Position numbers and translations under genes: made by a program. Source: a virus. From it: DNA of 64,000 nt. Below the pieces are notes generated by a model. It was not told the origin of the DNA. It ran no database searches and saw nothing but the letters and a program-made list of their open reading frames with translations. Of the stretch, positions 1 to 41,108 are shown piece after piece. The DNA is taken from positions 18,470 to 82,469 of the IMG/VR virus record IMGVR_UViG_3300033571_019537; one strand, 5' to 3'. The stretch's first letter is position 1; each line of letters starts with the position of its first letter.

Positions 1-310
1 TAATCTGCATGGTTTCATAAACAAAATTATTATTTATTTTTAAAGAATCAAGTTTAATATAAGAATTATTTGCCTTATCAAAATAATAATCAATTCTTGG
101 AATTAAGGTTTCCCTTAATGTTGGTGATGGTCTTTCACCAAAAAGAACATGAAGAAGATTTGATACCTGATATTTTGTTATAGGTTCTTCAAAAAAATCA
201 ATATCATCCCTATCCCTTGTACCATTTATATCACCAACTTTATCCTTATATTTTCCAGGTCTAAATTGTCTAGCATTTTTAAAACCCAATACCAAAAATT
301 TATTCTTCAT
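1..310 (-). CDS. Partial protein, third gene of the cas3 operon
   Basis: The open frame starts at an ATG whose complement is 308-310 and runs off the left edge, so only about 103 N-terminal residues are visible (MKNKFLVLGF...). It overlaps the stop of the Cas7-like gene by 11 nt, which indicates translational coupling within the operon. No family is recognisable from this fragment. From position in a type I CRISPR-Cas operon (cas3, cas7-like, this gene) I infer another effector subunit such as Cas5 or Cas8, but nothing in the visible residues proves it. It lacks the N-terminal FxVEE tag of its neighbour. Confidence 0.7.
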   Translation of the reverse strand, partial: MKNKFLVLGFKNARQFRPGKYKDKVGDINGTRDRDDIDFFEEPITKYQVSNLLHVLFGERPSPTLRETLIPRIDYYFDKANNSYIKLDSLKINNNFVYETMQI

Positions 311-1385
311 TTTTCTTTCCTTTTTTTGATTCTTTTTTCTCAGCAGATTTTTTCTTTCTGTTTTTATATTCTACTTCAATTGATTCTCTTAATTCTTTAC
401 TTTTCTTTAAATCAACTTCATTATAGAATAATTCTGATTCAAATTCCAATTTTGTTTGTGGTGTAAATTTAACCCAACCATTTTCATCTTCTAATGTATC
501 AGTTAATACATCATAAACAAATTTAACTTCCAATTCATTTGATTTAACAAATGCATCTCGTTTTGTTACATTTAATCTTAACATTTTTTGTAACAAATCA
601 TTAACCAAAAAGTTAACATTTTCTTGACTTAATAAGAATCCCCATTCAGGTATTTCAATGATTGAATTTTTCATTTGGAAATAACCTAATTCTGAATTAA
701 AGTTTGGTAACTTTGTTTGCAAGAATTTCTTAAACAATTCAAAATTGTCTGGGTCAAATGACATTCTATCAAAAATATCATCACAACTAACAAATTGTAA
801 TTGTGATAAATCAATTGAACCAACGGTTTGATAATCAATATCACCAACAACTTCTTTTTTGAAGAAAGTATTATCGGTTGCACCATTATCTTCATCATCT
901 TTTCTACCAGATTTTGCAAAAGTTTCAATATGTGAAACTGAATCATTTGTTTGTTCTGCATCAACCAAAGTTAAAGAACCTTTTCTTTTTAAGGTAACTG
1001 TTTTTGATGTTTCCAACCAACCTCTAACCAATTTTGATGGTGATGCAAGATAAGAATGTAATACCACCACATTATCTTGAACATTTGGTGATTGGAATGG
1101 AATATCAGAAAAAATATTATGCAATAAGAAATCTGATGAAGTTGTTAACTTATAAGAAAATTTATCACCATTCTTATAAAGTCTTTTCTTTGCATAATTG
1201 GTGTTTTTATGTTGGGTTTTCATGTAACTCAAATCAGTACTATTAAGTACAAATCTTTGGTCAGATGAATCAAAGTTTACAACACCCCTACCTTTTAATT
1301 TCCATCTTAAAAGAATAGATTTAACTGTTTTTTCTTTTTGTTTTGGTTGAACTTCCTCAACCGAAAATACTGATTTTTTTGACAT
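300..1385 (-). CDS. Cas7-like CRISPR effector backbone candidate with N-terminal tag
   Basis: 361 aa, second gene of the leftward operon, 30 nt after cas3. Residues 1-11 (MSKKSVFSVEE) match a tag shared with several unrelated proteins in this window and end in V-E-E. The putative fold begins after it with a strand-like stretch (ILLRWKLKGRGVVNF, about residues 24-38). A central SPSKLVRGW segment and a following basic TLKRKGSLTLVDAEQ segment look like the RNA-binding and thumb regions of Cas7-type RAMP proteins, and the length fits Cas7. The C-terminal 30 residues are lysine- and glutamate-rich and probably disordered. Assignment rests mainly on synteny with cas3 and general Cas7-like layout; I cannot fix the subtype. 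Alternative: an unrelated phage protein that happens to lie next to cas3. Confidence 0.55.
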   Translation of the reverse strand: MSKKSVFSVEEVQPKQKEKTVKSILLRWKLKGRGVVNFDSSDQRFVLNSTDLSYMKTQHKNTNYAKKRLYKNGDKFSYKLTTSSDFLLHNIFSDIPFQSPNVQDNVVVLHSYLASPSKLVRGWLETSKTVTLKRKGSLTLVDAEQTNDSVSHIETFAKSGRKDDEDNGATDNTFFKKEVVGDIDYQTVGSIDLSQLQFVSCDDIFDRMSFDPDNFELFKKFLQTKLPNFNSELGYFQMKNSIIEIPEWGFLLSQENVNFLVNDLLQKMLRLNVTKRDAFVKSNELEVKFVYDVLTDTLEDENGWVKFTPQTKLEFESELFYNEVDLKKSKELRESIEVEYKNRKKKSAEKKESKKGKKNEE

Positions 1386-1415
1386 TTTTTTGTTTGTTTT
1401 TTATGGTTATTAAAT

Positions 1416-3629
1416 TTATTCGGTATCTATTAATCCTAATTCAGAATCATATTTTTTATCATACCTTATATAAGGTGTATTTGATTTTTTCCCCATTCTA
1501 CGAACAATATCAATATTTAATTTTTCAAATTTTTCCAACATTTCTCTGAATTCAAATCGTTTATCATCACAAAGTGCTCGATATGTTTTTTTGAATCTTT
1601 CCATTACATTTTGTTTTTCATGGAAATCTTCACCAATTGATTTATATATTTGTTGGTTAAAAACATCAGTATATTCTTCTGAATTAACTTTTTGACAAAT
1701 ATAAAATATATTTGAACCAACAAGTCTTAGTTTATTTGATTCTGCGTTTTTAATATCAGTTTTTTGTTTTCCTTTATTAAAAAATTTAATAGGATAAATT
1801 CCACTTAATAATTCACAAGAAGTAAGAAATCTTTCTTGAATAAAGTCTTTAATTTCTTTTTGATTTATTTCATTGAATTTATTAAATATAGAATAAATTT
1901 CTGACAAAGTCAAATTCTTGTTATTTCCATTTTCTTTAAAGAAATTAAACCATTTAGTTGATAAGTCAAATGTATAATGAATGTGTTTTACTGCACGTTC
2001 TGCCTTATCCTTATTAAGATTAATAATATTAATAGTACTATCATCATATTTACCCCAACGATTTGTTCTACCTATTCTTTGTACTGTTGTTTGTGGTGAT
2101 AAAACTGATTCATATAAATTTTTAAAAGAAATATCCATTGATGCCTGTAAAATAAGTGAAGAAACAACATCTTCTTTTACACCATCTTTTGAATATTTAT
2201 CATATAAAGAATAAATTAAATCAGTTCTTTTCTTTCTATCTTCTTCTAAATAATCAGAATGAATTAAAATTTTCTTATTTAAGTTTCTATACACTTTTTG
2301 GGTATTCTTAATAGAATTTAAGATGATTAAATTATCACCATTTTCTTCTAAGTTTAAAACTGAAACATCAGATTTTTCAGAAAAATTAAGTTTATATTTT
2401 TTATCATGTGCAGGTGGGTAATGATGATTTTTCTCTGGTAAGAATTTTGATTTATTTGATGGGGTATCCCACATATAAGAAATATCAAATGGTGTTGCAG
2501 ATAATAGAATTGTATCAGAATTAGTATATTTATGTCTAATATTCATTAAGTTAATAAAACAAGAAAATAATGCACCTTCTGTAATTAATTCATGATATTC
2601 ATCAAAAACAACATCACAATCATTTATAAAATAAAGTTCATTCATTCTTCCACTATTAACTGATGGGGATAAAAAGTTATCTATATTAGTTACAATAATA
2701 TCAGAATCAAACCCACCACATCCATTCCAATTAGACATTTTCACTTCACTTTGGTAGAATAATTCAATTTTAACATTAACACAGAATTTACCAATCAAAT
2801 CTTTTAATTCACGATAAACTTGTTCTGCAACAATATTTCTTGGACAAACCCAAATCATTTTTTTATTTGATTGTAGATTTTTTAGAAATCCAATTAAAGT
2901 TTTACCAAACCCAGCAGGTGCATTAACAAAATTAGTACCTTTAAGTTGTGTAACAATATTTTTTTGAAGTTCAAATCTTTCATTATTAAATGGTGGATTA
3001 TAATTTTTTACTATTTCCTTTTCCAAGAGTTTTTGGATAAATTCTTCTGAATTAGGATAATTACCATCAAATGATGAAACCAATCTATCAGATGTAATTA
3101 AAATACTTCTTAATAAAGTTTTTTCAACTTGTTTTCCTTTTAATTCCAAAAATTCATAAAAAAGTGGTGGATTTATTTCTTTTCTACCATTATCATCCAC
3201 AAAACATTTTTTTGTTATTGGAAACTTTAAGAAATATTTCTTCATTGATTCAATATCTTTTTCAGTAATTGAATCATAAACATCTTGATTTGTTAATTTT
3301 TTATCGCCATATTTTTTAAAATAAGGAAACCCATGATGCCAATAAATTAAATCCAATATCATATTATATTCATAATCATCAATTTTTAAATGTTTGCTAA
3401 CAAATGCCCAACTGATTTCATTATGAGTAAATTTTCTTTGTGAATCTTCATCTTTTAAGAATCTTTGGAACTCTTCTGTACATTTACCTATATCATGTAA
3501 AAGTGATGATATTTCTAAAACTTTTTTATGTTGTTTATTAAGACTATCATATCTTTTTAAAAACTCTAAAGAATATTCCATTACTTTTAAAGAATGTACA
3601 TCTAATAATTCGTTTGTTTTTCCTAACAT
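1416..3629 (-). CDS. cas3: CRISPR-associated nuclease/helicase Cas3 (HD + SF2 helicase)
   Basis: 737 aa, a normal length for Cas3. An N-terminal HD nuclease domain shows H12, H45-D46 in LLHDIGK, H69 and the H98-H99 pair in IYWHHG. A superfamily 2 helicase follows: motif I APAGFGKT (237-244), motif II DEYH (343-346), motif III SAT (377-379), and motif VI QRIGRTNR (517-524). In type I systems Cas3 is recruited by Cascade to unwind and degrade target DNA. This is the first gene of a leftward operon with its own host-type promoter (3646-3683). All catalytic motifs look intact. The gene has the same AT-rich codon use as its phage neighbours, suggesting long residence in the phage genome. An HD-fused defence helicase of another kind is less likely given the motif order. 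Confidence 0.88.
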   Translation of the reverse strand: MLGKTNELLDVHSLKVMEYSLEFLKRYDSLNKQHKKVLEISSLLHDIGKCTEEFQRFLKDEDSQRKFTHNEISWAFVSKHLKIDDYEYNMILDLIYWHHGFPYFKKYGDKKLTNQDVYDSITEKDIESMKKYFLKFPITKKCFVDDNGRKEINPPLFYEFLELKGKQVEKTLLRSILITSDRLVSSFDGNYPNSEEFIQKLLEKEIVKNYNPPFNNERFELQKNIVTQLKGTNFVNAPAGFGKTLIGFLKNLQSNKKMIWVCPRNIVAEQVYRELKDLIGKFCVNVKIELFYQSEVKMSNWNGCGGFDSDIIVTNIDNFLSPSVNSGRMNELYFINDCDVVFDEYHELITEGALFSCFINLMNIRHKYTNSDTILLSATPFDISYMWDTPSNKSKFLPEKNHHYPPAHDKKYKLNFSEKSDVSVLNLEENGDNLIILNSIKNTQKVYRNLNKKILIHSDYLEEDRKKRTDLIYSLYDKYSKDGVKEDVVSSLILQASMDISFKNLYESVLSPQTTVQRIGRTNRWGKYDDSTINIINLNKDKAERAVKHIHYTFDLSTKWFNFFKENGNNKNLTLSEIYSIFNKFNEINQKEIKDFIQERFLTSCELLSGIYPIKFFNKGKQKTDIKNAESNKLRLVGSNIFYICQKVNSEEYTDVFNQQIYKSIGEDFHEKQNVMERFKKTYRALCDDKRFEFREMLEKFEKLNIDIVRRMGKKSNTPYIRYDKKYDSELGLIDTE

Positions 3630-3645
3630 ATTTTAAATTTATGAA

Positions 3646-3683
3646 CACAAAAATACTATTTTTTTACTACCAAATTAATGCAA
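3646..3683 (-). promoter_or_regulatory. Bacteroidota-type promoter for the cas operon
   Basis: Reading the minus strand, TTGCATT (3683-3677) is followed after 21 nt by TATTTTTG (3655-3648). This fits the TTG / TAnnTTTG architecture of primary-sigma promoters in Bacteroidota and leaves 18 nt between the -7 element and the cas3 ATG. The same TTGCATT-N21/22 layout recurs ahead of other genes here, which supports it being real. Confidence 0.7.
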
Positions 3684-3704
3684 TATTTATTTATAAACCA
3701 AATT

Positions 3705-5033: not shown

Positions 5034-5225
5034 AATTTCATAAATCTGAATCTGGTCAGAAGTTTTTAAAAATTTATAGTTTTCATCATCATAATTACCA
5101 TCTAAATATGTTAAATTAAATTTTCGATTATCATACCAAATAACTAATGATTTTTTAATTAAATCATTAGTTAAAAAATTCCCACTATTTCTACCCAGAT
5201 TTAACAAAGTTTTTTCTAATGTCAT
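5013..5225 (-). CDS. Small hypothetical protein
   Basis: 70 aa starting at the ATG that overlaps the preceding gene's TGA (ATGA junction at 5222-5225); a longer frame up to 5306 would lie wholly inside that gene and is unlikely. No recognised domain. It is the last gene of a leftward run and its 3' end overlaps the dipeptidase gene tail-to-tail. Confidence 0.6.
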   Translation of the reverse strand: MTLEKTLLNLGRNSGNFLTNDLIKKSLVIWYDNRKFNLTYLDGNYDDENYKFLKTSDQIQIYEILKEVPF

Positions 5226-5731: not shown

Positions 5732-5736
5732 AATTT

Positions 5737-6925: not shown

Positions 6926-6928
6926 AAT

Positions 6929-7180: not shown

Positions 7181-7192
7181 TTTTATTTATTT

Positions 7193-7375: not shown

Positions 7376-7752
7376 AAGTTAAAATAGTAGTTATAGATTT
7401 TACAATTTTTATTTAAATTTTTAAAATTAGGGAACATACAATCACCTATTGAATTATCATTTATATGGGATATATGTAATTCAGTAAAATAAGGTGAATA
7501 TTTCTCATAAGTTTTTTTACCACCAATGCACCAATCAATTAATTCAAAATCATTAACCAAACCATTCCTTTCATCTAAAATAATTTCTCTTTTAGGTAGT
7601 GGTGGTAATTTTGTAAAAGTGTTATAACCAACTAATATTTTAGTGTTTAATGTTAAATTTTTAAAATGATTTAAATCTTCTTTACATTTCCAAAGTAATT
7701 CATTTTCTTTTCCAATAAAACACAAATTATTAACTGATACTATTCCTTTCAT
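7372..7752 (-). CDS. folA: Short dihydrofolate reductase
   Basis: 126 aa from the ATG at 7752 (MKGIVSVNN). DHFR hallmarks are seen: the first strand GIVSVNN and IGKENELLW; the acidic catalytic residue in KEDLNHFK, equivalent to the active-site aspartate that follows the tryptophan; LVGYNTF for the NADPH-binding strand and helix; and CIGGKKTYEKY for the GG cofactor motif. At 126 residues it is shorter than the usual 155-165, with the loss mainly in the C-terminal half. DHFR regenerates tetrahydrofolate for thymidylate synthesis, and T4-like phages commonly encode it. Activity is plausible but the shortening makes it uncertain. Confidence 0.75.
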   Translation of the reverse strand: MKGIVSVNNLCFIGKENELLWKCKEDLNHFKNLTLNTKILVGYNTFTKLPPLPKREIILDERNGLVNDFELIDWCIGGKKTYEKYSPYFTELHISHINDNSIGDCMFPNFKNLNKNCKIYNYYFNL

Positions 7753-8662
7753 CTTCAATTTTTGAATATTTTTCTAAAACTTTACCTATATTTGCAATTG
7801 ATTTATTATGAATTTCATTTTTTAATTCTTGTGAAATTCTAATAGATTCTTCAAGAGTAATTTTTGGATTGTTCTTAGTTTTTTCATATATTTCATCAAC
7901 TTCTTTATCAGAAAGATTTTTATTAACCAAAAAAGAAACCTTATTTTTATGTTTTTTGGTTATTAATGATTCTTTTTCAACAGGATTTTTTTCCAATTTT
8001 TGAAACACCAAAAAATAAGAATGATACTTTCTTGCATGAACTTGTTTTGAATGTTTACCAGATAATATTCTATTTTTTGCATTTAGAATAAACATATCCT
8101 TACAATAAAACCCGATTTCAGTTCCTTGATTAATCAATTCAACATGAGATAAATATTGTTTTGAAGATGAAACCGTGTCTTGACATTTAACAACCAAAAA
8201 TTTATTTGGTTTGAGTATTCTATGACATTCTTTTAAGGTTTTATAATAATAATCCCACAAATCTTTCATTGTTTTAAATGAACCAAATCTATTTGCAATT
8301 ATATTACTTCCTGATTTACCTTTAGATGAATTTGGAATACCAACTGTAAATACTGGGTCAAATAATATTGAATTTACAGATTCATTATCAAGTGGTAAAT
8401 CATCTGATGATGCCTCAATGGTATCATTGGTTTGAGGATATAAATCAAATTTATGAATTGGTTCTTTAATTCCTTTCTTATAAAAGTTTCCTTTTGAATA
8501 AGTTGGGTCACATTCAAAAAAACCTTCCTCAATATAAAGTTTAATTATATTCCTTAATATTTCATTTTGGTCAAAAGAAATTGATTTAATAACTGTATCA
8601 TTATTATACAATTTTTTTTCTTCTATTTCTTCTAATTGAAAGAATGTATTTTGATTACCCAT
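7730..8662 (-). CDS. DNA methyltransferase (N4/N6 class) with N-terminal FFxLEE tag
   Basis: 310 aa. Residues 1-12 (MGNQNTFFQLEE) carry the shared N-terminal tag ending in L-E-E. An AdoMet-dependent methyltransferase core follows: FECDPTYSKGNF, SVNSILFDPVFT (DPPF-like catalytic motif IV as DPVF), ECHRILKPNKFLVVKCQD and KYHSYFLVF. This layout fits DNA N4-cytosine or N6-adenine methyltransferases. The lysine-rich C-terminal 80 residues are helical. Within the window it could use AdoMet made by the synthetase at 51065. Likely role: self-protection of phage DNA from host restriction, or host modification if the tag delivers it with the virion. Confidence 0.75.
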   Translation of the reverse strand: MGNQNTFFQLEEIEEKKLYNNDTVIKSISFDQNEILRNIIKLYIEEGFFECDPTYSKGNFYKKGIKEPIHKFDLYPQTNDTIEASSDDLPLDNESVNSILFDPVFTVGIPNSSKGKSGSNIIANRFGSFKTMKDLWDYYYKTLKECHRILKPNKFLVVKCQDTVSSSKQYLSHVELINQGTEIGFYCKDMFILNAKNRILSGKHSKQVHARKYHSYFLVFQKLEKNPVEKESLITKKHKNKVSFLVNKNLSDKEVDEIYEKTKNNPKITLEESIRISQELKNEIHNKSIANIGKVLEKYSKIEDERNSIS

Positions 8663-20947: not shown

Positions 20948-22477
20948 ATGGGTAAAAATTTCTTAAAATCACTTACAGTAGAAAATGGGATGGTGAAATT
21001 ATATCACTATTCTGATAAAAAAATTGATTCTGGATTTATTCAAGTAAATAAACCCTATAATATTCATTCAAAAAATGAATTTAGGATTTGGGGTAAATCG
21101 AGAAGTTTTTTTTATTGTAATGAAGATGGTTATAAATTTGATAAAGGTGTTAATACAAATTACCTTTATATTTGTTATATACCCATTAATGACATTTATC
21201 CTATCAATGATAACCCCTATAAATATAAAAAATTGGATGATGATTATAATTCATTTGATTCTTATTTTAAACAATCTTGGGATGATGGATTTACTGCATG
21301 GGGTTACTTTTTAGGTGGTAATAAAAATGCACCTATAATTATTTCTTTTATTGATTTACCAATTTCTGAATCTTTTAAAATATCCAAAGGTGGACTAAGA
21401 ATTCCTATGGATGAAACAGAATTGGATTATGTAATAGGGGATATTTTAATTGGTGAAGAAAAATATTTTGTTATTCAAAAAGGTGGTTATCCAACAACAC
21501 TTCTTAATTGTTATTTAAGTGATGAAAAAAATATTAAGAAGGTAATGAAAGGTTATCAAAAAACCTTAGAAGTCTATATGTGGGATGATTTATCATTAAA
21601 AGAAGAATTTATTGGTGATTATATAAAAGATTTAAAGAAATCTAAATTATGGATAAAAAGATTAAGTGAAAGTTTAAGTGATAAGATTAAATCCAGAGCA
21701 AATGACCAGGAAAAACAAGCAATAGAATATTATACAAAGAAAATTGAGGAAGGTGAATGGGATATTCCAGATAATATTTTTGATAAATTACCAGATAATA
21801 TTAAATTAAAATATGTTGAAAACATTATCAATCGTAAAGTTGGTTTTGGTTTAACAAAAGAAAAATTTAATTCTTTATCAAATGATTTAAAATTAAAATA
21901 CATTAAATATATAATTGAAAACCAACATAAAGGTTCAGTTTTATCAGATGAAGAATTTGATTTTGCCCCAGATGAATTAAAATTAAAATATATTAAAATT
22001 AGACTTGATGAAATGGGTCTTGGTATATCAAATTATAAAATGACATGGTATATTGAAAATAGAAATATAAATGAAGTATTAAATTTAAAATCTCGTGCAA
22101 AAGAACAGGAAAAACAAAAGGAAGAATATATTAAAACCATTATTTCAAAAGGAATTGAAAATATTAATGCAAAAGACATAAAAACATTTTTTAATTTTGA
22201 GAAATTAGATATAATTTGGAAAAAAGTTATTGAAGATTTGGGTGTTTTACGTAATTATTGGGATTATAAAATAACTGATAGTTTTTTAAAATTTACTCAT
22301 GGTAATACAGAAGTTGTAGTTATAGTAGTGCCAACTTTTGGATTATTTAAAATAATGATAATAGGTAAAGGTCATTTTAATAAAGGTTTTAAAAAATCAG
22401 AATTTGCAACAAATTATAAAACATTAATAGAAACATTAACTGAAATTCTAAAAGAGGGTGATATAACAAATGAGTAA
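20948..22477 (+). CDS. Modular protein: ART-like LYHYS domain plus two leader-linked modules
   Basis: 509 aa. Residues about 15-210 form a domain starting VKLYHYSDKKI with a downstream SRSFFYC, a layout common in phage proteins and similar to ADP-ribosyltransferase folds. Leader 1 (IKSRANDQEKQ, about residue 249) is followed by helical LPDNIKLKYVENI repeat units. Leader 2 (INEVLNLKSRAKEQEKQ, about residue 378) is followed by an EEYI-type alpha/beta module. Leader 2 is directly preceded by I-N-E, a hydrophobic-x-E triplet. It overlaps the next gene by 8 nt. I interpret it as a polyprotein of independent modules; function unknown. Confidence 0.65.
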   Translation: MGKNFLKSLTVENGMVKLYHYSDKKIDSGFIQVNKPYNIHSKNEFRIWGKSRSFFYCNEDGYKFDKGVNTNYLYICYIPINDIYPINDNPYKYKKLDDDYNSFDSYFKQSWDDGFTAWGYFLGGNKNAPIIISFIDLPISESFKISKGGLRIPMDETELDYVIGDILIGEEKYFVIQKGGYPTTLLNCYLSDEKNIKKVMKGYQKTLEVYMWDDLSLKEEFIGDYIKDLKKSKLWIKRLSESLSDKIKSRANDQEKQAIEYYTKKIEEGEWDIPDNIFDKLPDNIKLKYVENIINRKVGFGLTKEKFNSLSNDLKLKYIKYIIENQHKGSVLSDEEFDFAPDELKLKYIKIRLDEMGLGISNYKMTWYIENRNINEVLNLKSRAKEQEKQKEEYIKTIISKGIENINAKDIKTFFNFEKLDIIWKKVIEDLGVLRNYWDYKITDSFLKFTHGNTEVVVIVVPTFGLFKIMIIGKGHFNKGFKKSEFATNYKTLIETLTEILKEGDITNE

Positions 22478-25075: not shown

Positions 25076-25435
25076 ATGAGAAAAAAATTGTTTTGGGAAG
25101 TAACTCATCTTGATAATAAAGTGATGGGTAGATATTCCTTAGATTCTTTAATAAAAAAAATAGAACCATATAAAAGAGAAATATGGGAACTTAATTCTAA
25201 TATTTATAATGTTAATTTAGTTCTTTATATTAAAAAAAATACTTTATATAATATTAAATTTCCTTCTTTAACTATTTCTAATATTTCAAATTTTGAACAC
25301 ATAATTATTGATATTGTTGGTAATTGTTACTTGGGTAATAATTACGTTAATTGTACAAAATTAAATTCAACTTTTACAAATAAAGAAAAAATAGAGAAGA
25401 AAGTAAAAGAAATACTAAAATGTTCTGGCAAATAG
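25076..25435 (+). CDS. Hypothetical protein
   Basis: 119 aa from the ATG at 25076 (MRKKLFWEVTHLD); an earlier alternative start lies too close to the previous stop. Beta-rich in the middle, lysine-rich at the C terminus. LFWEV near the start loosely recalls the tag of the next two genes but lacks the E-E. Its 3' end overlaps the next gene by 16 nt. Confidence 0.55.
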   Translation: MRKKLFWEVTHLDNKVMGRYSLDSLIKKIEPYKREIWELNSNIYNVNLVLYIKKNTLYNIKFPSLTISNISNFEHIIIDIVGNCYLGNNYVNCTKLNSTFTNKEKIEKKVKEILKCSGK

Positions 25436-26106
25436 AAGAATTAAAATTACCTTGTTTCATACCGAAACAAAGAATAAAAAAAACCTACATTAGTAAACAA
25501 ACTGTAAAAACTACTAATGAAGATATTCCTTTAATTTTAAATTTATTTAAAAGAAGGGATATTAATACGATTTTTAAAATAGAATCAAGTCCTTCACAAA
25601 AGGAATGGCAAAGTTTTGTTAAGTCTGATATAAAATATTTCTATAAAAATATTTTCTACTTAGATAGTATGAAAACATTCCAAATGTCAATAAAAAAAGA
25701 TAAACCAACTGGTGTTATGATAAATTATGTGAAATATAATAATCAAAATACTTTGGTAATTATGAATGATTTAAATATATTTAAAATAATTAACAATAAC
25801 ATAATTGAAGTTAAAAATGAAGTAATTGATAGATATATTAATAATATTCATGGTTTGCAAAAATATAAATCAGAAATGATAAGGGAAATTCTTTCTAATA
25901 ACTCTATTAATAATTTTAAATTACCTAAAAAATTGGGTACTGAATATTTTGGTGATTTAACTTTAGATGGTGTTAATATAAACATTTTTCCTTTGACCAA
26001 AGTACATGGTACTTTAACATTTAAAAATTCTGTTGTTAATTATGTAAAATGTAAATATAAACATTTGATTTTTAATATAAATGACAGTAAAATTAATATA
26101 TTCTAA
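25420..26106 (+). CDS. Tagged hypothetical protein (MFWQIEEL)
   Basis: 228 aa. It starts with the shared tag MFWQIEE, and the first 21 nt of the gene are identical to those of the next gene. The body is mixed alpha/beta with a repeated NIFKIINNN-type segment also seen in its neighbour (KIFKINNN), so the two genes are paralogues. The C-terminal 60 residues look like beta-helix rungs. No catalytic motif recognised. The overlap with the upstream gene implies coupling. Confidence 0.6.
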   Translation: MFWQIEELKLPCFIPKQRIKKTYISKQTVKTTNEDIPLILNLFKRRDINTIFKIESSPSQKEWQSFVKSDIKYFYKNIFYLDSMKTFQMSIKKDKPTGVMINYVKYNNQNTLVIMNDLNIFKIINNNIIEVKNEVIDRYINNIHGLQKYKSEMIREILSNNSINNFKLPKKLGTEYFGDLTLDGVNINIFPLTKVHGTLTFKNSVVNYVKCKYKHLIFNINDSKINIF

Positions 26107-26444
26107 TGTTCTGGCAAATAGAAGAAATTAAAATTAAAAAATGTTCAATTTTTTCAATAAAAAGTGAAGATGTTATTGATATAGGTAACATTTATTTTGG
26201 TACTACAAATGTGTATTATTATATAGAAATATTTAGAGGTGATATTTTTAAGGGTGTTATTTCTGAAAATCTTTTTCAATCATTTTTAAACCCAAAAAAA
26301 GGTATTTTTATTAAATCAAATTATAAAGATGAAGAATATCTTTATATTGATAAAGATAAAAAAATATTTAAAATAAATAATAATAAAATACAAAATCAAA
26401 TTCATAACGAATATATTTTAAAAATAATGGATAAATATGAATAA
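26106..26444 (+). CDS. Tagged hypothetical protein (MFWQIEEI), paralogue of the preceding gene
   Basis: 112 aa, starting within the stop of the previous gene (TAATG). It has the same MFWQIEE tag and shares the middle segment ending KIFKINNNKIQ. It is a shortened paralogue lacking the C-terminal rung-like region. The next start overlaps its end by 8 nt. Confidence 0.6.
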   Translation: MFWQIEEIKIKKCSIFSIKSEDVIDIGNIYFGTTNVYYYIEIFRGDIFKGVISENLFQSFLNPKKGIFIKSNYKDEEYLYIDKDKKIFKINNNKIQNQIHNEYILKIMDKYE

Positions 26445-28822: not shown

Positions 28823-31800
28823 ATGTTTTTAACCGAAATAGTAGATTTATCTAATGTTTATATTACAAAAAGAACTAAAAATAGGAATCTAAATATTATT
28901 ACGTATAATTTTAAGACTGATGATGATTATAATTTTTCAGTAGATTTTATATTAGATGGTAATGATATTTGGAATAGACATTTTTCAACATTTGAGAAAC
29001 AATTTGATGATATTAATAGTCAGGAAAGATTTAAAATATTAAATACAATAACAAAAATTACTTTGGATTTTATTGAAAAATATAACCCAAAGAAAATAAA
29101 AATTTACCATGTAAGAAGTAAAAGTGAATTTGCAAATAACCCCTATGATGAAAATAAAAGAACAAGGGTGAACAAATATTTTTTGGAAAAAGTATTACCA
29201 AGTAACTATAAAATCAAAACTTTTGGTAATAATACTGAAATTGATTTGGTTGAAAATAAATTGAATTTAAAATCTCGTGCTGGAGAACAAGAGAAACAAA
29301 GAGAAGAATATATAAAAAGTATTATTGGAAATAAAGATATAATGGAATTAACCCCAAAAGAAGTAAATTCAACTTTTTTGTCTAAATTTATATTTCCAAT
29401 ATTAATTAATAAATTAAAACAAAAATTCCCAAAATTAAAGTATAATAATCTATTTCTTATAGATATAAGAAATAAAAAACTACTTTTCTTCTCGAATGGG
29501 AAAAAATTTTTTTTACATTTTTATACACCAATCACAACATATAATGGTTTTGGTGAAATTATAATGGAAGAAGAATTTAATACAGTAGGTGAATTATATA
29601 ATAAATTGGAAGAAATTATTTCTGATAATTATAATTTAAAAGAAAATTTAAATTTAAAATCTCGTGCAAAAGAACAGGAAAAACAAAGGGAAGAATACAT
29701 TAAAAATATTGATGATAAAATTCTAAATTCACCAGTAAAAGATTTACCTGAAAATATTTTGAATTTATTGGGTTTAATTATAAGACAAAAAGTTAAAGAA
29801 AAATATCCTTTTATTAATACTTTTGATAAATTTTATGAAAATAATCTTAATTTTGATAAAGTTGATTTTAAAAATATACGTTTTAAAAATATCATTGGTT
29901 CGTTTTCAATTACTCAACATTTAGATAAAATAAACTTACATATTTTAGGTCCAAGAGATATAATAACACAAGAAAGAACATTAAAGAATATAAACATAGA
30001 GTTTGATACAATCAATGAAATTCTAGAATTTTTATTTTATTCAATTTCCAAAACTTATGATTCTAATGGTAATTTACTTGATTTTAAAAATTTAAAAGAA
30101 TCTAAAAAACAAATTAATGAAATTGCAGAATTAACCAACACTTATTCTTATGAAAAAATTGTGGATGGTGATAAAATAAAATATCGTTTTTCAGATGGTG
30201 AGGAAATATTCTTTGTTAAATTTCTTCTTTTATCAATTGGAAAGTTTGGTGAAGAATGGGAAAGAGAATATTACACAACATCAAAATGGATGAATGAATT
30301 AAATAAAGAAAATTCTTTAAGAGTTCTTGGTACTGTTACAAAAATAACAAATGAATTTATTAATGATTATAGACCTGAAATAATAACCATTTCACATATT
30401 GATTCAAGAAAGGAAACAATGGGAAGATTTTCAATTGATTCTATTTTAAGTGGGAATAAAAAAGATGACAACGAACCAAATAAAAGAGCAAAAATAAATA
30501 GATTATTTTTATCAAAAAACCTACCGCAAGATTATAAATTGGAATACAAAGGAAATGTTACATTTATTAAAAGAAAAGATTTAAATGAAAGTTGGAAAGA
30601 TATGTTAATTGGTACTGCGATAGGTTTATCATCCTTAAATCCGCAAGAAGTTAAATCTCAAAATATTAATCAACAACAAATACAAACAAAAATTTTATCT
30701 AAAGTTAATGGACCTGTTGGTGTACAATCAATTTCAAACCCTGACTTAGATTTAGTGCATGGAATACTGGGTTCAAAAAGACTTTCAGATGATTTTGAAC
30801 AAAGAGTTTCTGATGAACTAAAAAAATTAAATAATCAAGGTTTTAAAACAGATGTAACTAACATACAAATAAAAACTTATGTAAAAGATAATAAAATAAT
30901 AACAGAAAGTTCTTGTGATATTATTGAATCAAAAGATGGTAATTCTTATACTATATTCACTACAAGAGGTAGTATTGGTGATAACTTTGAACAAAGACAT
31001 AACCAACAAATTTCTGGATTAGAAGATAGACTAAAAAATCATTACGGTGGTAATTCTAAAAAAATTAAAACAGTTACAATTAATTTTTTGTTAGGTGGTG
31101 AAACAATTTATTACAAACAAAGTTTTTTTGTTGTTTCAGAAAATAAAAATGAACAAATTAATATTAGTGCTAATAATTTAGAGGATTTAAGAAATAAACT
31201 GTTAAATATAAGTAAAAATGATTCAATAAATTTAAATTCATTAGTTATTGATATTGACAACTATAAAATATCTTACGAAAAAGGTAATACGAAAATTACT
31301 AATTTGTCTTTAATTTTTGATACTAATTTTGATAATCTTAATTTAAGATTACAAACAATAAAAGAAAAAAATCCAACACTTAAAGTTTTATCTAAAGGAA
31401 ATAATTCTGGTTACTATTGGGTTTTTTCTGTTATATTAAAAAACTTAAATGAAGGATTAAATTTAAAATCTCGTGCAAATAACCAAATAATTCAATCAGT
31501 AAAATACTATTCAGATAAATTTTTAAATGGTACTCATAGTGAAAAACTTAATTTAAAAATACCTAAAGAGGTTTTTAAACTTCTTTCAGATGATGTTAAA
31601 TCTAAAATTATTAATTTCTACCCAAATTTACTTAAATATGATTATTTCTTAGATTTAAGTAAACCACTAAAAAAAGAATATATTGATTCTGGTTGGGGTT
31701 TGAGTGATGAATATTTTTTATCTTTATCAGATGATTTAAAACAATATTATTTAAATAAAATTTTAAAACACGTTAATTGGAATTTATCAGATATTCAGTA

Positions 31801-32425
31801 TAAATTTTTGACTGATGATTTAAAAGAAAAATACATTAATTATTTATTTTTAAATCCAAATAATACACCAAGAGTACTTTCTAAAGAACAAGTAAAAAAT
31901 ACTTCAAATGAATTGTTAAATAAGTATATTGGTTTAATAATCAAAAATTATGATAAAGATTTTTATTTTTTATATCCAGATTATTTAAAAAAATTAGTAA
32001 GAAATTATAAAAAACAAAATATAAAAGAAAATTTAAAACTAACTTCTAGAGCAAATCAACAAGAAAAACAAAGAAATGATTATATAAAAAATATTATTGG
32101 TGATAAATCAATTATGGATTTAAAACCAAAAGAAGTAGTTGAAGTTGAAAAAATTGATGAACATTTTATGGATAAATTTATAATTAATAGAATAAAACAA
32201 AAATTCCCAAATTTAAAACATGATGATAATTTTATTTATATTACTTATGACAACAAACCAAGTCACATTACAATTTTTGTATCAACAAGAAATTACTTTG
32301 TTTTAAGATGTTTTGATGATAAAAAAATTGGTACAACAGGACTACTATTAGATGAAAAATTTTATTCGGTTGGTGAATTATATAAGAGATTGGAGGAAAT
32401 TATTTCGCAAAATTATATACCTTAA
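28823..32425 (+). CDS. 1200-residue modular protein with four SRAxxQEKQ leaders
   Basis: Order of modules: (1) residues 1-140, the recurrent TKITLDFIEKYNP domain; (2) leader at about 147 (LVENKLNLKSRAGEQEKQ) with an EEYI-type module; (3) leader at about 275 (LKENLNLKSRAKEQEKQ) with a second EEYI-type module; (4) about 430-585, another copy of the recurrent domain (TKITNEFINDYRP); (5) after LNE-SWKDMLIGTAIG, a distinct alpha/beta domain; (6) leader at about 878 (LNEGLNLKSRANNQ) with helical LSDDLKQYYLNKI repeats; (7) leader at about 1069 (IKENLKLTSRANQQEKQ) with a module paralogous to module 2. Most junctions carry hydrophobic-x-E. Probably a polyprotein; function of the modules unknown. Confidence 0.7.
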   Translation: MFLTEIVDLSNVYITKRTKNRNLNIITYNFKTDDDYNFSVDFILDGNDIWNRHFSTFEKQFDDINSQERFKILNTITKITLDFIEKYNPKKIKIYHVRSKSEFANNPYDENKRTRVNKYFLEKVLPSNYKIKTFGNNTEIDLVENKLNLKSRAGEQEKQREEYIKSIIGNKDIMELTPKEVNSTFLSKFIFPILINKLKQKFPKLKYNNLFLIDIRNKKLLFFSNGKKFFLHFYTPITTYNGFGEIIMEEEFNTVGELYNKLEEIISDNYNLKENLNLKSRAKEQEKQREEYIKNIDDKILNSPVKDLPENILNLLGLIIRQKVKEKYPFINTFDKFYENNLNFDKVDFKNIRFKNIIGSFSITQHLDKINLHILGPRDIITQERTLKNINIEFDTINEILEFLFYSISKTYDSNGNLLDFKNLKESKKQINEIAELTNTYSYEKIVDGDKIKYRFSDGEEIFFVKFLLLSIGKFGEEWEREYYTTSKWMNELNKENSLRVLGTVTKITNEFINDYRPEIITISHIDSRKETMGRFSIDSILSGNKKDDNEPNKRAKINRLFLSKNLPQDYKLEYKGNVTFIKRKDLNESWKDMLIGTAIGLSSLNPQEVKSQNINQQQIQTKILSKVNGPVGVQSISNPDLDLVHGILGSKRLSDDFEQRVSDELKKLNNQGFKTDVTNIQIKTYVKDNKIITESSCDIIESKDGNSYTIFTTRGSIGDNFEQRHNQQISGLEDRLKNHYGGNSKKIKTVTINFLLGGETIYYKQSFFVVSENKNEQINISANNLEDLRNKLLNISKNDSINLNSLVIDIDNYKISYEKGNTKITNLSLIFDTNFDNLNLRLQTIKEKNPTLKVLSKGNNSGYYWVFSVILKNLNEGLNLKSRANNQIIQSVKYYSDKFLNGTHSEKLNLKIPKEVFKLLSDDVKSKIINFYPNLLKYDYFLDLSKPLKKEYIDSGWGLSDEYFLSLSDDLKQYYLNKILKHVNWNLSDIQYKFLTDDLKEKYINYLFLNPNNTPRVLSKEQVKNTSNELLNKYIGLIIKNYDKDFYFLYPDYLKKLVRNYKKQNIKENLKLTSRANQQEKQRNDYIKNIIGDKSIMDLKPKEVVEVEKIDEHFMDKFIINRIKQKFPNLKHDDNFIYITYDNKPSHITIFVSTRNYFVLRCFDDKKIGTTGLLLDEKFYSVGELYKRLEEIISQNYIP

Positions 32426-32912: not shown

Positions 32913-32949
32913 TTGCATTGAAAAATTTGGGAATTTTGTTTTATATTTG
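32913..32949 (+). promoter_or_regulatory. Bacteroidota-type promoter for the 32964 cluster
   Basis: TTGCATT (32913-32919), 22 nt, TATATTTG (32942-32949), then TGG and the ATG 14 nt further on. A close match to the TTG / TAnnTTTG arrangement. Confidence 0.75.
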
Positions 32950-32963
32950 TGGAAAATTAAATT

Positions 32964-33233: not shown

Positions 33234-33242
33234 AAATAAAAT

Positions 33243-34206: not shown

Positions 34207-34214
34207 ATATCTTT

Positions 34215-35777: not shown

Positions 35778-35941
35778 TTAGTAAAGAAAAAAAAGGTAAT
35801 GAACTTTATGTTTGGTTCTGGGAAAGGGGTTTAAAAACTTTAATCTATAAAAGATGGATTGATAAAGGTTATGGTATGGTCATGGATAGAATTCCTTTTA
35901 CTGCGAAAGAAATTGATGAACAAAAATTAAAAAAACAATAA
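35774..35941 (+). CDS. Small hypothetical protein
   Basis: 55 aa, starting at the ATGA overlap with the gltX stop. Contains LYVWFWERGLKTLIYKRWI and a charged C terminus; amphipathic and aromatic. No family recognised. Confidence 0.6.
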   Translation: MISKEKKGNELYVWFWERGLKTLIYKRWIDKGYGMVMDRIPFTAKEIDEQKLKKQ

Positions 35942-35945
35942 ATAT

Positions 35946-36086
35946 ATGATTTACTTATTAAGTACAATTGTTCAATTTTTATTTTTCTACATGATTATTC
36001 GTTGGTTCACAATGGAAGTTATGAACAAATTTTGGTTTCCTGAATTTGAAGAAAAAATTAGACGTTGGTGGGGTAGAACTTTTTAA
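35946..36086 (+). CDS. Tiny single-span membrane protein
   Basis: 46 aa. An N-terminal hydrophobic segment (MIYLLSTIVQFLFFYMII) is followed by an aromatic, basic tail ending RRWWGRTF. It starts 4 nt after the previous stop. Function unknown. Confidence 0.55.
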   Translation: MIYLLSTIVQFLFFYMIIRWFTMEVMNKFWFPEFEEKIRRWWGRTF

Positions 36087-36089
36087 AGT

Positions 36090-36125
36090 TTGCAATACCA
36101 ATTTAAATTTTTTTCCTTATCTTTG
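36090..36125 (+). promoter_or_regulatory. Bacteroidota-type promoter for the Pnkp-ligase gene
   Basis: TTGCAAT (36090-36096), 21 nt, TATCTTTG (36118-36125), followed by TGG and the ATG 14 nt later. Same architecture and downstream context as the promoter at 32913. Confidence 0.75.
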
Positions 36126-36139
36126 TGGAAACTTAATCA

Positions 36140-38317
36140 ATGAGAACTTTAATTCTAACAAGGGGTTGTCCTGGTTCAGGAAAATCAACTTTTATTAAAA
36201 ATAATGGTCTGGAGGAATATACACTTTCCCCAGACCAAATTCGTTTATTATTTCAATCACCATCTCTTAATGAATTGGGTGGTTTAAATATTTCAATGAA
36301 TAATGATAACAAAGTTTGGTCATTACTTTTTGAACTTCTTGAAAAACGAATGGAAAGGGGTGAATTAACGGTAATAGATGCAACACATCAAGGTAGAACA
36401 AATTTTCAACGTTATAAAAAATTAATTGAAAATTATCGTTATCGTGCATTTGTATTGGATTTTACTGATGTTCCAATAGAAAGGGTTTTAAAACAAAATA
36501 AAATGCGTGATGAATATAAATTTGTTCCAGAAGAAGTTATTCACCGTGCATTTGCAAGATATGATTTGGAAAAACCTCAAGGTAGGTTTATTATAACAAA
36601 ACCTGATAATTTATTTGAAAATATTCATGCAAAACCAATTGATTTATCCAATTATAAAAATGTTTATATATTCGGTGATATTCATGGTTGTGTTGAACCT
36701 TTAATTCAATTTTTTCAAGATAATCCTTTTTCTTTAGAAAATCAATATATTTTTGTTGGTGACTTTATTGATAGGGGTATAAATAATTCTGATGTATTAA
36801 AATATATGTTGGAATTATCAAAACAACCCAATGTTTATCTTATTGAAGGTAATCATGAAATACATCTTTGGAAATGGGGTAATAATGAAATATCAAAATC
36901 TAAAGTATTTGAAGTTGAAACAAAACCCCAATTAGAAGAATCTGATTTCACCAAATCTGATGCAAGGGAATTATATCGAAAATTAGGTCAAATGTCATGG
37001 TTTACATATAATGGAAAAGAATATCTTGTAACTCATGGTGGTTTATCTACGTTCCCAAAAAGAAATTTAATTTATATTGCAACGCAAGAAATGATTAAAG
37101 GTGTTGGCAGACATAATTTGGATATTGATGAAGTTTTTTCACAAAACTGTAATAAGGAAATTTATCAAATTCATGGTCATAGAAATTCAAAAAACTCATC
37201 AATATTTGCATCAGAAAAATCATTTAACTTGGAGGGTAAAATTGAATTTGGTGGTCATTTAAGAATTTTGCATTTATCTGGTAATGAAATTAAAGGTATT
37301 GAAATTAAAAATAATTTATTTAAAATAAAAGAAGAACTTGATACCGAAGTGGTAAATCTTGAAGGACTTAATTTGGTTAATGAATTAAGAAAATCCAGAT
37401 TAGTTCGTGAAAATAAGTTAACCAATTATATATCTTCTTTTAATTTTACTCGTGATGCATTTTTCAATTCAAAATGGAATCAATTAAACATTAAGGCAAG
37501 GGGATTATTTCTTAATACAATTAATGGTGAAATTATAACTCGTTCTTATGATAAATTTTTTAATATTGGAGAACAAAAAGAAACATCATTGGATATATTA
37601 CCTACAAAAATAAAATTTCCACTTACTTGTTGGCATAAATATAATGGTTTTTTGGGATTGGTAGGTTATGATTCCATTAAAGATGAAGTTTTTATATCAT
37701 CAAAATCAACTTCTGATGGAGAATTTTCCCAAATGTTTGCCAAAATATTAAAAGAAAAAATCACTAACTTTGACTTACTAAAAGATTATGTAAAAAATAA
37801 TAATTGTTCACTTATTTTTGAGGTAATTGAACCGAATTTAGACCCACATATTATTGAATATCCCAAACCAAATATCGTTCTTATTGAATCTGTAAAAAGA
37901 GATATTGAATTTAAAACTGATTCTTATGAAGAATTATTAAAAATTGGTAAGGAATTGGGATTGGATGTTAAAGAAAAAGTTGCAGTTTTTAATCATTGGG
38001 AAGAATTTTATGAATTCTATAAAAAAATTCTTCATCATGATTATAATTTAAATGGTGAATGGATTGAGGGATTTGTATTTGAGGATATGAATAAATTTAT
38101 GTTTAAATACAAAACTTATTTTTATAATAAGTGGAAGTATAGAAGAGGAATTAAAGATGCAGTTGCAAGACAAAAAGATGATAATAAACCATTTAATCAC
38201 GGTAAATTAAAATCTAAAGAAGATGTTGAATTTTATGGTTGGTTAAAACAACTTGATAAGGATTATTTAAAAGAAGTGTCAATTATTGCATTAAGAAATC
38301 AATGGTTAAAAAGATGA
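36140..38317 (+). CDS. RNA repair enzyme: polynucleotide kinase - phosphatase - RNA ligase fusion
   Basis: 725 aa. Domain 1 (1-150): P-loop kinase, GCPGSGKST at residues 9-17, for 5'-phosphorylation. Domain 2 (about 172-390): calcineurin-type metallophosphatase with GDIHGC (179-184), GDFIDRG (207-213), GNHE (237-240) and VTHGG, for removal of 2',3'-cyclic or 3' phosphate. Domain 3 (about 400-725): nucleotidyltransferase ligase, with motif I K500-Y-N-G in HKYNGFLG, motif III LIFEVIEP, motif IV EGFVFED and motif V FKYK. One chain thus heals and seals broken RNA. In T4 the separate Pnkp and Rnl1 repair tRNA cut by host anticodon nucleases. The gene heads an operon with its own promoter. Confidence 0.9.
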   Translation: MRTLILTRGCPGSGKSTFIKNNGLEEYTLSPDQIRLLFQSPSLNELGGLNISMNNDNKVWSLLFELLEKRMERGELTVIDATHQGRTNFQRYKKLIENYRYRAFVLDFTDVPIERVLKQNKMRDEYKFVPEEVIHRAFARYDLEKPQGRFIITKPDNLFENIHAKPIDLSNYKNVYIFGDIHGCVEPLIQFFQDNPFSLENQYIFVGDFIDRGINNSDVLKYMLELSKQPNVYLIEGNHEIHLWKWGNNEISKSKVFEVETKPQLEESDFTKSDARELYRKLGQMSWFTYNGKEYLVTHGGLSTFPKRNLIYIATQEMIKGVGRHNLDIDEVFSQNCNKEIYQIHGHRNSKNSSIFASEKSFNLEGKIEFGGHLRILHLSGNEIKGIEIKNNLFKIKEELDTEVVNLEGLNLVNELRKSRLVRENKLTNYISSFNFTRDAFFNSKWNQLNIKARGLFLNTINGEIITRSYDKFFNIGEQKETSLDILPTKIKFPLTCWHKYNGFLGLVGYDSIKDEVFISSKSTSDGEFSQMFAKILKEKITNFDLLKDYVKNNNCSLIFEVIEPNLDPHIIEYPKPNIVLIESVKRDIEFKTDSYEELLKIGKELGLDVKEKVAVFNHWEEFYEFYKKILHHDYNLNGEWIEGFVFEDMNKFMFKYKTYFYNKWKYRRGIKDAVARQKDDNKPFNHGKLKSKEDVEFYGWLKQLDKDYLKEVSIIALRNQWLKR

Positions 38318-38625
38318 AAAATACATTTTTTACGGTAGAAGAAATTCAATTAAAAAATAATATTATGATTAATACAGAAAAATTAAGAAAAATTATTCTT
38401 TTAAAAGAAAAAGAAAACGAGGAAATTAAAGAAAAGGAAAATTTAATACACAAATGTGTTTATGATTTACAGATTTGTCCTGTTTGCGGTAATCCTTTAA
38501 AATATGAAATAATAAAAGAAAGAAGTTTTTTGTTTTTTACTAATAAAAGAGCATTTACTTATTGTACTACAAATAAGACCCATTATAATGAAGAAGATGA
38601 ATCTGGTGAAGAAGAAGATTGTTAA
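38314..38625 (+). CDS. Tagged small zinc-ribbon-like protein
   Basis: 103 aa from the ATG overlapping the ligase stop (ATGA). Starts MKNTFFTVEEI, a clear copy of the shared N-terminal tag. A helical charged stretch follows, then CPVCGNP and a later single Cys, suggesting a partial zinc ribbon, and an acidic C terminus (EEDESGEEEDC). Function unknown. Confidence 0.65.
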   Translation: MKNTFFTVEEIQLKNNIMINTEKLRKIILLKEKENEEIKEKENLIHKCVYDLQICPVCGNPLKYEIIKERSFLFFTNKRAFTYCTTNKTHYNEEDESGEEEDC

Positions 38626-38642
38626 TATTTTAATAAATTAAA

Positions 38643-39335
38643 ATGAACTATCAAGATTATAAATATATTTTTCCACCAAGACCAGAAAATGCAACAAAAA
38701 TTTCTGATTGTGAATTTTATCAATCTAATGGTTATTTCGCACAACCAAAATTAAATGGTTCTTGCTGTTTATTATTCACAAATGGTCAAACTTTTATTGT
38801 AAAAAATAGACATAAACAATCTTTTTCAAATTTTAAAATAAGTGTAGAAATAGAAACATTAGTTAAAAGAATTTATGAAAAAAATAAAGATTTGGGTTGG
38901 ATTGTTTTGGTTGGTGAATATCTAAATAAATCGCAAAAAGATGAAAATGGAAAAATATTTAACCAAAAACTTGTTTTTTTCGATTTAATTGTTTATAATT
39001 CAAAACATCTTCTGGGTGAATCTTTCCAAAGTCGTTATAATCTTCTTTTGAATTTGTTCACATCTAAAGATGAAACTGATAAATATTACTTTGGTAAATT
39101 GGATTTAAAAGACTATAACAAATGGTTATATACAATAGATGAAACTTTTTATGTTGTTAAAACCTTTGTAAAAGAAGATTTTAAGGAATTATATGAAGAA
39201 ATGGTGAAACATGAATTATATGAAGGTTTGGTCTTAAAGAGAATGGTTGCACCATTGGAAAATGGTATTACCGAAAAAAATAATACCAAGTCACAAATAA
39301 AAATTAGAAAAGAAACAAAAAATTATAAATTCTGA
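38643..39335 (+). CDS. Second RNA ligase (nucleotidyltransferase superfamily)
   Basis: 230 aa. Motif I K36-L-N-G (AQPKLNGSC), a downstream RHKQSF strand, motif III LVGEYL, motif IV EGLVLKR and motif V IKIRK match the covalent nucleotidyltransferase core of RNA ligases. No separate C-terminal domain is present. The short length suggests a minimal ligase or a partner-dependent enzyme. Position right after the kinase-phosphatase-ligase gene suggests a role in RNA repair; a DNA ligase function is less likely. Confidence 0.8.
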   Translation: MNYQDYKYIFPPRPENATKISDCEFYQSNGYFAQPKLNGSCCLLFTNGQTFIVKNRHKQSFSNFKISVEIETLVKRIYEKNKDLGWIVLVGEYLNKSQKDENGKIFNQKLVFFDLIVYNSKHLLGESFQSRYNLLLNLFTSKDETDKYYFGKLDLKDYNKWLYTIDETFYVVKTFVKEDFKELYEEMVKHELYEGLVLKRMVAPLENGITEKNNTKSQIKIRKETKNYKF

Positions 39336-39658
39336 TGAAAACATTTTTTCAAGTAGATGAAATAAAACCCATAAAAAGGAAGAAAAATAATTCAGTTGTA
39401 GAATCAACCACTCAATTGATTGATAATTCATTACCTAATTGGTTTACAAATATTCAATTACTTAGAAAAAAGTATAATGAAATAGAAAAACTTAATGATA
39501 ATGAATTATTATTATTTTTAGATAATAAAAACTTTGATGAACGTTGTCAATATATTTTAGGGTTAGTTGATTATTGTCTTGAAATTAATTCATTTCCTTC
39601 ATTAAAAAAATATAAAGAAGAACTTTTATATTTAAAAAAAATAAATAAACAAAAATAA
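39335..39658 (+). CDS. Tagged small helical protein
   Basis: 107 aa, starting at the ATGA-type overlap with the ligase stop. The N terminus MKTFFQVDEIKPIKRKK is the shared tag, with V-D-E in place of V-E-E. The rest is helical and charged. No domain recognised. Confidence 0.65.
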   Translation: MKTFFQVDEIKPIKRKKNNSVVESTTQLIDNSLPNWFTNIQLLRKKYNEIEKLNDNELLLFLDNKNFDERCQYILGLVDYCLEINSFPSLKKYKEELLYLKKINKQK

Positions 39659-39659
39659 A

Positions 39660-40145
39660 ATGAAAAAAGACATTACAAAAGAAGAGTTTGAAAAACTTTA
39701 TAACGAATGGTATCCCAAATTCAAATCTTTGGGTTTGGACAACTTAAAGTTCCAAATTATGCGTACATTGTATGGTGAAAAAATAAAAGAAACTTTTCAA
39801 CAAAAAAAGGATTTTGGTAATTCATTGGAAAATTTTGAGAATTATGAAAAACTTTGCAAAGAAACAAAAAAAGATGTTTTAAAAAACGAATTGGAATTAA
39901 AAATTTTAAATGATAATGAATTTGAAATTTATTTCAATAAATCCCTAAAATGTAAAATTACAGATTATTATGAAGGAAAAACAAAACACTTCATAATGTA
40001 TAATCTTTTGTGTAATAAAAAATCAGACACATACGAAAGGGAAATTAGTTCTTTGATTGCAAATCAAGAATATAATGTAACAAAAATAAAATTCAATCCA
40101 ACTTTTGATGAAATTATTGATAAATTTCTTCCTCAATTAAAATAA
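39660..40145 (+). CDS. Hypothetical protein
   Basis: 161 aa, one nt after the previous stop. The helical N-terminal half is charged (ITKEEFEKLYNEWYPKF); the C-terminal half has strands around FEIYFNKSLKCKI. No family recognised. Lies between the RNA-repair genes and the sigma factor. Confidence 0.6.
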   Translation: MKKDITKEEFEKLYNEWYPKFKSLGLDNLKFQIMRTLYGEKIKETFQQKKDFGNSLENFENYEKLCKETKKDVLKNELELKILNDNEFEIYFNKSLKCKITDYYEGKTKHFIMYNLLCNKKSDTYEREISSLIANQEYNVTKIKFNPTFDEIIDKFLPQLK

Positions 40146-40170
40146 TTTTTTATAATCAAACCAAACCTAT

Positions 40171-41004
40171 ATGTTAAAAACCAAAACAAGAAAAAAAGAA
40201 AAAAAAGAAGGTATTGATGATATAATTGAAACCAATCTATCATCCTTATTTTTTAAGGATGTTAGAAAAACACAAAAATTATCAGGTGATGATGAAAAAT
40301 TAATGTGGCAAAAATATTTTAAAACAAAAGATAAAAAAATAAGAGATTTAATAATAAAATCTCATTTACTTTTCGCAATAAAAACTGCAAATGAATTTAG
40401 TGGTGTTTGTAATCAATATAATATTGATATAAAAGATTTATATCAAGAGGCATTAATTGGTCTTGTTACCGCATCTGAAAAATATACTTTAGAAAAAAAC
40501 ACTAAATTTATATCTTATGCAGTATGGTGGGTTCGCCAATCCATTCTTGCATATCTTTCTGAATATTCAAGAGAAATAAGATTACCTTTAAATGTTGTTA
40601 ATGATATTCAAAAACAACAAAAAAAGAATGAACAAAAACTAAAACAAGATGAGTTTGTTGATACAAGTGATGATATATTTGTACCAACAGTACAATCAAT
40701 TTATTCTTCAATTAATGAAGATGGTGATGAATTAATTGATTTAATACCAGCAAATATAACCCCACCTGATAATATTGATAAATTTGATAAAAGAAAAGAA
40801 TTAGAAGATTTAATTAGTAATGTACTTGATGAAAGAGAAAAAACTATTATTACAATGTATTATGGGTTTGATGGTAATAATAATTGTAATTTAGAAGATG
40901 TTGGTGATGAATTAAATTTAACCAAAGAAAGGGTTAGACAAATAAAAGAAATTGCACTTAAAAAACTTAGAACAAACGGAAAAAATCTTTTTAAATTTAA
41001 ATAA
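40171..41004 (+). CDS. RNA polymerase sigma factor (sigma-70 family)
   Basis: 277 aa. Region 1.2/2: LSGDDEKLMWQKYF, then LIIKSHLLFAIKTANEF; region 2.2-2.4: IDIKDLYQEALIGLVTASEKY and ISYAVWWVRQSILAYL (shown in part); region 4: NLEDVGDELNLTKERVRQIK with LKKLR. A short linker replaces part of region 3. It would direct host RNA polymerase to phage promoters, the natural candidate reader for the A/T-only late-like motifs. Group 2/RpoD-like rather than ECF. Confidence 0.9.
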   Translation: MLKTKTRKKEKKEGIDDIIETNLSSLFFKDVRKTQKLSGDDEKLMWQKYFKTKDKKIRDLIIKSHLLFAIKTANEFSGVCNQYNIDIKDLYQEALIGLVTASEKYTLEKNTKFISYAVWWVRQSILAYLSEYSREIRLPLNVVNDIQKQQKKNEQKLKQDEFVDTSDDIFVPTVQSIYSSINEDGDELIDLIPANITPPDNIDKFDKRKELEDLISNVLDEREKTIITMYYGFDGNNNCNLEDVGDELNLTKERVRQIKEIALKKLRTNGKNLFKFK

Positions 41005-41005
41005 A

Positions 41006-41108
41006 ATGAATACAGTTTTTACAGTAGAAGAACATAAAGAAAAGATTGATTCATTTTATTAAGAATAATCCTGAAAATAGAATATTTTATAAATATTTTA
41101 AAATATAA
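41006..41108 (+). pseudogene. Tag-bearing gene fragment
   Basis: An ATG one nt after the sigma stop opens an 18-codon frame, MNTVFTVEEHKEK..., ending at 41062; the first nine residues are the shared tag. A +1 frame from about 41043 continues as LIHFIKNNPENRIFY and ends at 41108. I read this as the broken remnant of a tagged protein, though a real 18-residue peptide is possible. Confidence 0.45.

Follow-up and report, generated by a model that had tools for sequence, protein, structure and literature searches.

A short N-terminal peptide, best written as [FVLW]-[FW]-x-[VIL]-x-E-[ILV], recurs above chance on otherwise unrelated proteins of a T4-like phage. It is modular on a Cas7 CRISPR effector and a DNA methyltransferase, is under selection at the level of the peptide and persists in one diverged relative. 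At least 14 tagged genes and one degenerate copy were counted, and no published report of the motif was found in literature searches. We give slightly better than even chances to a model where this tag is a short N-terminal docking motif for one putative receptor, which would bring different proteins together. The first-pass annotation had described a common tag on unrelated proteins; all of the peptides that it listed were found where it had placed them, and a shared, modular tag is well supported by the enrichment and by the unlike bodies described below.

The window, i.e. the whole stretch of 64,000 nucleotides analyzed here, corresponds to positions 18470-82469 in a virus record of 82 kb. 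A second record of 173 kb (G001) includes the whole window at 99.998% identity. The end of G001 overlaps a 133-kb contig (G003) over 6,904 bases with 99.986% identity, and the other ends of the two have 43 bases in common, from which we infer one T4-like phage genome of ~300 kb; G001 and G003 come from two samples and possibly represent two near-identical strains. The phage encodes a sigma-70-like factor and T4-type head and tail proteins, including gp23 (4e-75), gp20 (4.6e-72), sheath, tube and TerL. As the nearest major capsid proteins among cultured phages include those of Flavobacterium and Rhodothermus phages, the host is likely in or near the Bacteroidota.

To score recurrence, the motif of the first-pass annotation, F[FW]x[VIL][ED]E, was kept fixed and searched in the first 14 residues of each protein, the gene starts used throughout being predictions from one lineage and few contigs. 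In the window, the motif was present in 5/77 genes (shuffle mean 0.007) and at none of 18,545 internal positions. The genome-wide N-terminal search that the annotation had called for gave a frequency above that of shuffled N-termini (shuffle mean 0.030, maximum 1 in 2000): outside the window, 4 of the 367 held-out genes of the same phage carry the motif, and no match was found at 62,250 internal positions there. Over all tested phage proteins, the internal count was 0/80,795. Such N-terminal enrichment, with 4 matches vs 0.03 expected and 0 internal, rules out a chance origin. A slightly wider motif added two copies outside the window and the Cas7 copy, VFSVEEV, which is one residue off the strict motif, at the cost of three internal matches overall, and reading by eye added MFWIIEKI (G003:33133) and a mini-ORF at 41006. 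The motif is one residue longer than first written, with an aliphatic residue next in nearly all copies.

Two tagged genes of the window lie on the minus strand. Gene 300..1385 encodes a 361-aa Cas7fv-like CRISPR effector (PADLOC and PDB matches) whose N-terminal tag, MSKKSVFSVEE, is translated from 1353..1385, and gene 7730..8662 encodes a 310-aa N6/N4 DNA methyltransferase (Pfam and PHROG matches) that starts with MGNQNTFFQLEE (8627..8662). The others were read from translations of the plus strand. MFWQIEE begins both a 228-aa protein (gene 25420-26106; tag 25420..25440) and a 112-aa protein (gene 26106-26444; tag 26106..26126). A 103-aa protein containing a CxxC...C zinc-ribbon-like stretch (gene 38314-38625) starts with MKNTFFTVEE (38314..38343), an alternative start being present four codons 5' at 38302, and a 107-aa protein (gene 39335-39658) starts with MKTFFQVDE (39335..39361); no confident family was found for either in PHROG/Pfam searches. 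The sequence MRKKLFWEVTH (25076..25108, plus strand) is a weak, degenerate tag and was left out of the certain copies. At 41006..41062 on the plus strand, directly after the sigma factor gene, the tag stands almost alone: what had been listed as a fragment does contain the peptide but is an 18-codon ORF, MNTVFTVEEHKEKIDSFY followed by a stop codon. In the stretch 41006-41125, another frame just 3' of this ORF is open briefly, so that the ORF may be what is left of a tagged gene that was once longer. Outside the window, the tags are MKTFFTVEEL (L003:5648-6010), MFWQIEEV (G003:1671), MFWQIEEI (G003:32594), the MFWIIEKI mentioned above, MKTFFEISEL (G003:83686), MNTLFTVEEL (G003:89653) and MKNFFTVEEI (G003:98434).

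The bodies behind the tags were mutually unlike in an all-vs-all comparison, with the sole exception of a weak 56-aa match between 25420 and G003:1671 (E 0.002). The annotation had made the same claim with an exception for the 25420/26106 pair; the lack of relationship holds and the exception does not, since these two bodies are not detectably alike and only their 21-nt tags are identical. The modularity is clearest in the two proteins of known families. The product of gene 300-1385 matches Cas7fv (PADLOC, 8.6e-19) and the PDB entries 9g44_F / 5o6u_C (about 3e-13), a homology that identifies it as a type I-F variant CRISPR effector. This homology begins only at residues 16-19, past the tag, and the tag is therefore extra to the Cas7 fold. 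No relatives of this Cas7 were found by a degenerate DNA search of cell genomes or by tblastn of GenBank phages. The product of gene 7730-8662 matches Pfam PF01555 (3.8e-10) and phrog_24333 (4.3e-65), and its homologues in other phages, 46-54% identical, are without the tag; those of L072, L074 and LR756504 start with the ‘IKSIS’ found at residue ~24 or have a few residues in front of it. In a structure model of low confidence overall, residues 1-22 are without secondary structure (pLDDT 25-29) and the fold starts from about residue 24. The AlphaFold model of the 25420 product (pLDDT 43) was too poor for use. At its other end, the methyltransferase has a C-terminal extension of ~85 residues (window 7730-7985) that is missing in the homologues examined.

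The Cas7 gene is part of a phage-encoded CRISPR-Cas system located at 300-3629 of the window and at L003:16666-18779. It comprises Cas3, the Cas7fv-like protein and Cas6b, along with a gene located where Cas5 would be expected, and its array has 36-nt repeats separated by spacers of 29-30 nt. The system mixes an I-F-variant Cas7 with an I-B-type Cas6. No protospacers for the array were found in the loci examined.

The tag codons differ silently (TTT/TTC, GTA/GTT, GAA/GAG), and the 40 nt upstream of tagged genes are no more similar to each other than those of random genes (mean 8.35 vs 8.37). Selection has thus acted on the peptide and not on the DNA, and these two observations rule out a DNA-level element or a copied cassette.

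The tag is kept in a diverged 12.5-kb relative (G002), where the orthologues of 25420, 26106 and 25076 start with MFWEIHEIK, MNFWEITEIK and MNVKPYWEIKD, respectively. The first two retain M-F-W-x-I-x-E-[IL]-K on bodies that are about 41-50% identical. In the 25420 orthologue, the tag residues M-F-W-I-E-K are retained and the next ~20 residues gain or lose residues; the stretch after the tag differs in length between both window proteins and their orthologues. No enrichment of the tag was seen in 14 further phage records, which were mostly from T4-like or huge phages. Pattern searches of IMG/VR gave 51 + 30 + 8 matches, almost all of which lay in very short ORFs, in frame but internal to a gene, or on single genes without relation to each other (the match in G007, MTKCFTVEEV, is a 20-codon ORF), and repeated tags were found there only in the studied phage and G002. 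A host-derived peptide was rejected after a search of a genome collection, where the 20 matches to MKxFFx[VI]EE[ILV] were mostly very short ORFs or the own N-terminus of one RibF-like family and gave no repeated tag. The tag appears to be lineage-specific, and the evidence for its conservation, from the studied phage and one 12.5-kb relative, is thin.

In the docking model that we favor, [FVLW]-[FW]-x-[VIL]-x-E-[ILV] would act as a linear motif at the extreme N-terminus, usually followed by a variable linker. A single receptor, phage- or host-encoded, would bind it and gather Cas7 and the methyltransferase, along with a dozen small proteins, into one place or complex during infection. Candidates for this receptor include the scaffold, an SSB-like protein and the AAA ATPase encoded next to G003:83686. 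As Cas7 and the methyltransferase are both DNA-acting, our first guess is that this recruitment would concentrate such proteins at the replicating phage genome, that is, on phage DNA or at a replication site; most of the tagged bodies are without an assigned function. In known type I systems, each effector complex contains several Cas7 copies, so that one complex would show the tag many times over. For the small FW proteins, however, it could belong to the fold itself. A T4-type sliding clamp, to which such a tag might dock, was looked for by its gp45 C-terminal domain and not found in the phage. The tag is a ready bait for the receptor and could be used as a portable label to unite proteins of choice.

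The first-pass annotation had put forward a T4-style capsid-targeting role. Spelled out, the tag would take proteins into the prohead core and be cut after its second E by the gp21-type protease, with Cas7, the methyltransferase and others being ejected with the DNA. In T4, a targeting sequence is carried by IPI, IPII, IPIII and Alt. It has ten residues and gp21 cuts it after L/I-x-E (PMC9026906), and the T4 internal proteins are diverse defence proteins with only this sequence in common (PMC3012670). Our tag is likewise N-terminal, about ten residues long and common to otherwise unrelated proteins, it ends in hydrophobic-x-E at residue 7-12, and the phage has, in addition to its T4-type gp23 and gp20, a gp21 protease (gene G003:102527-103228; PF03420 match at 102635-103111, 3.1e-22). 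Unlike in T4, a CRISPR effector and a methyltransferase are among the tagged proteins. The ending agrees with the T4 rule in part of the copies: L/I-x-E is present in the FW copies (IEE), the methyltransferase (LEE) and FFEISE, but P3 is V in 7/14 copies where L/I is expected, and P1' is I/L/V in 12/14.

The apparent cut sites of the phage's own protease look different. A block L-x-L-[KT]-S-[RA]-A (LKSRA block) was found in 25 copies in 12 proteins, with up to five per protein, and [LI]-x-E directly precedes 23 of the 25 (background 1.7%). At these junctions, themselves inferred cut sites, P1' is G in 8, N in 7, D in 4, S in 4 and K and V in one each, so that the apparent site is [LI]-x-E followed mostly by G/N/S/D, which the tag does not resemble. 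Nor does it resemble the gp23 homologue, which reads YLINE^ATTTDSSGSF near the expected cut position (site LINE^A), about the place where T4 gp23 is cut. A capsid-targeting role is better suited to another N-terminus of the phage, MKYIITEKQLKLIE (with its variants, MKY[IL]ITEKQL[KR]LIE), whose end coincides with such an [LI]-x-E junction. N-termini of the MKxxITExQLxxL type occur on different proteins in the studied phage and in two T4-like relatives (G004 and G008), neither of which shows the FF/FW tag, and are candidate capsid-targeting sequences. The mismatch at P3 and P1', together with the better fit of this other N-terminus, weakens the capsid-targeting reading of the tag and makes it unlikely in our view, but is no proof against packaging, as T4 permits targeting without cutting.

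More tentatively, one T4-like jumbo phage may have two N-terminal address codes, a T4-style capsid-targeting one (ITEKQL...LIE) and, separate from it, a docking code (FFxVEEI/FWxIEEI). The latter would send the CRISPR effector and the methyltransferase, together with many small proteins, to a common hub or compartment. Phages are known to sort proteins by short terminal addresses mainly when packaging the head. If true, a second, non-packaging address on a phage CRISPR effector would mean that large phages use simple peptide codes to arrange their proteins inside the infected cell.

Common ancestry, with small proteins from one ancestor retaining only their N-terminus, or a structural N-terminal strand, is quite improbable as an explanation for all copies. 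Three or four FW copies are identical in DNA for about 21 nt from the start, the weak 25420/G003:1671 match points the same way, and common ancestry could apply to some FW proteins; Cas7 and the methyltransferase, however, belong to different known families in which other members are without the peptide. Identical N-termini on otherwise diverged proteins are also seen in gp53 and gp54 of Salmonella phage SPN3US, where the first 15 residues are identical, the proteins are 34% identical and the propeptides have 124-125 residues (PMC5694885), but those are paralogues, whereas here ~7 residues are found on unrelated bodies.

The tag could also be a degradation or stability signal. A protease or adaptor under phage or host control would then recognise it, and the tagged proteins would be removed or kept at one stage. 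Such a recognition peptide fits the N-terminal placement, the small unrelated targets and the tag-only ORF at 41006. However, we know of no protease N-motif that matches, and degradation signals are usually less specific than a strict FFxVEE pattern with an acidic core, which makes this proposal very doubtful.

The first-pass annotation had named another phage compartment as its alternative. Least probable is that the tag directs proteins to a closed compartment of the phage-nucleus kind, for which chimalliviruses encode chimallin, PicA and PhuZ tubulin: the jumbo genome and the DNA-acting cargo would suit it, and PicA-dependent import in chimalliviruses likewise sorts proteins of a jumbo phage selectively, but that import reads surface patches on cargo without a conserved signal sequence or common terminal peptide (PMC11087766), and the studied phage has T4-type head and tail genes, no match to the tubulin profile PF00091 in 307 kb and its own sigma-70-like factor, which suggests use of host RNA polymerase and, with the other points, makes a chimallivirus-type nucleus unlikely.

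Two further features of this phage were observed. A fuller form of the LKSRA block, LxL[KT]SRAxxQEKQREEYI, is found in the window at 28823-32425, 53366-55408, 44450-45499 and 20948-22477, at G003:5599-9798 and in others. The proteins with LKSRA blocks look like polyproteins from which the gp21-type protease would release several head proteins, and they are possibly as interesting as the tag. In addition, 18 small ORFs starting with M-x-x-x-KT[LIF]xN[LI] were found at G001 119519-120275 and in many places in G003; these look like a paralogous family with a second recurrent N-terminus.
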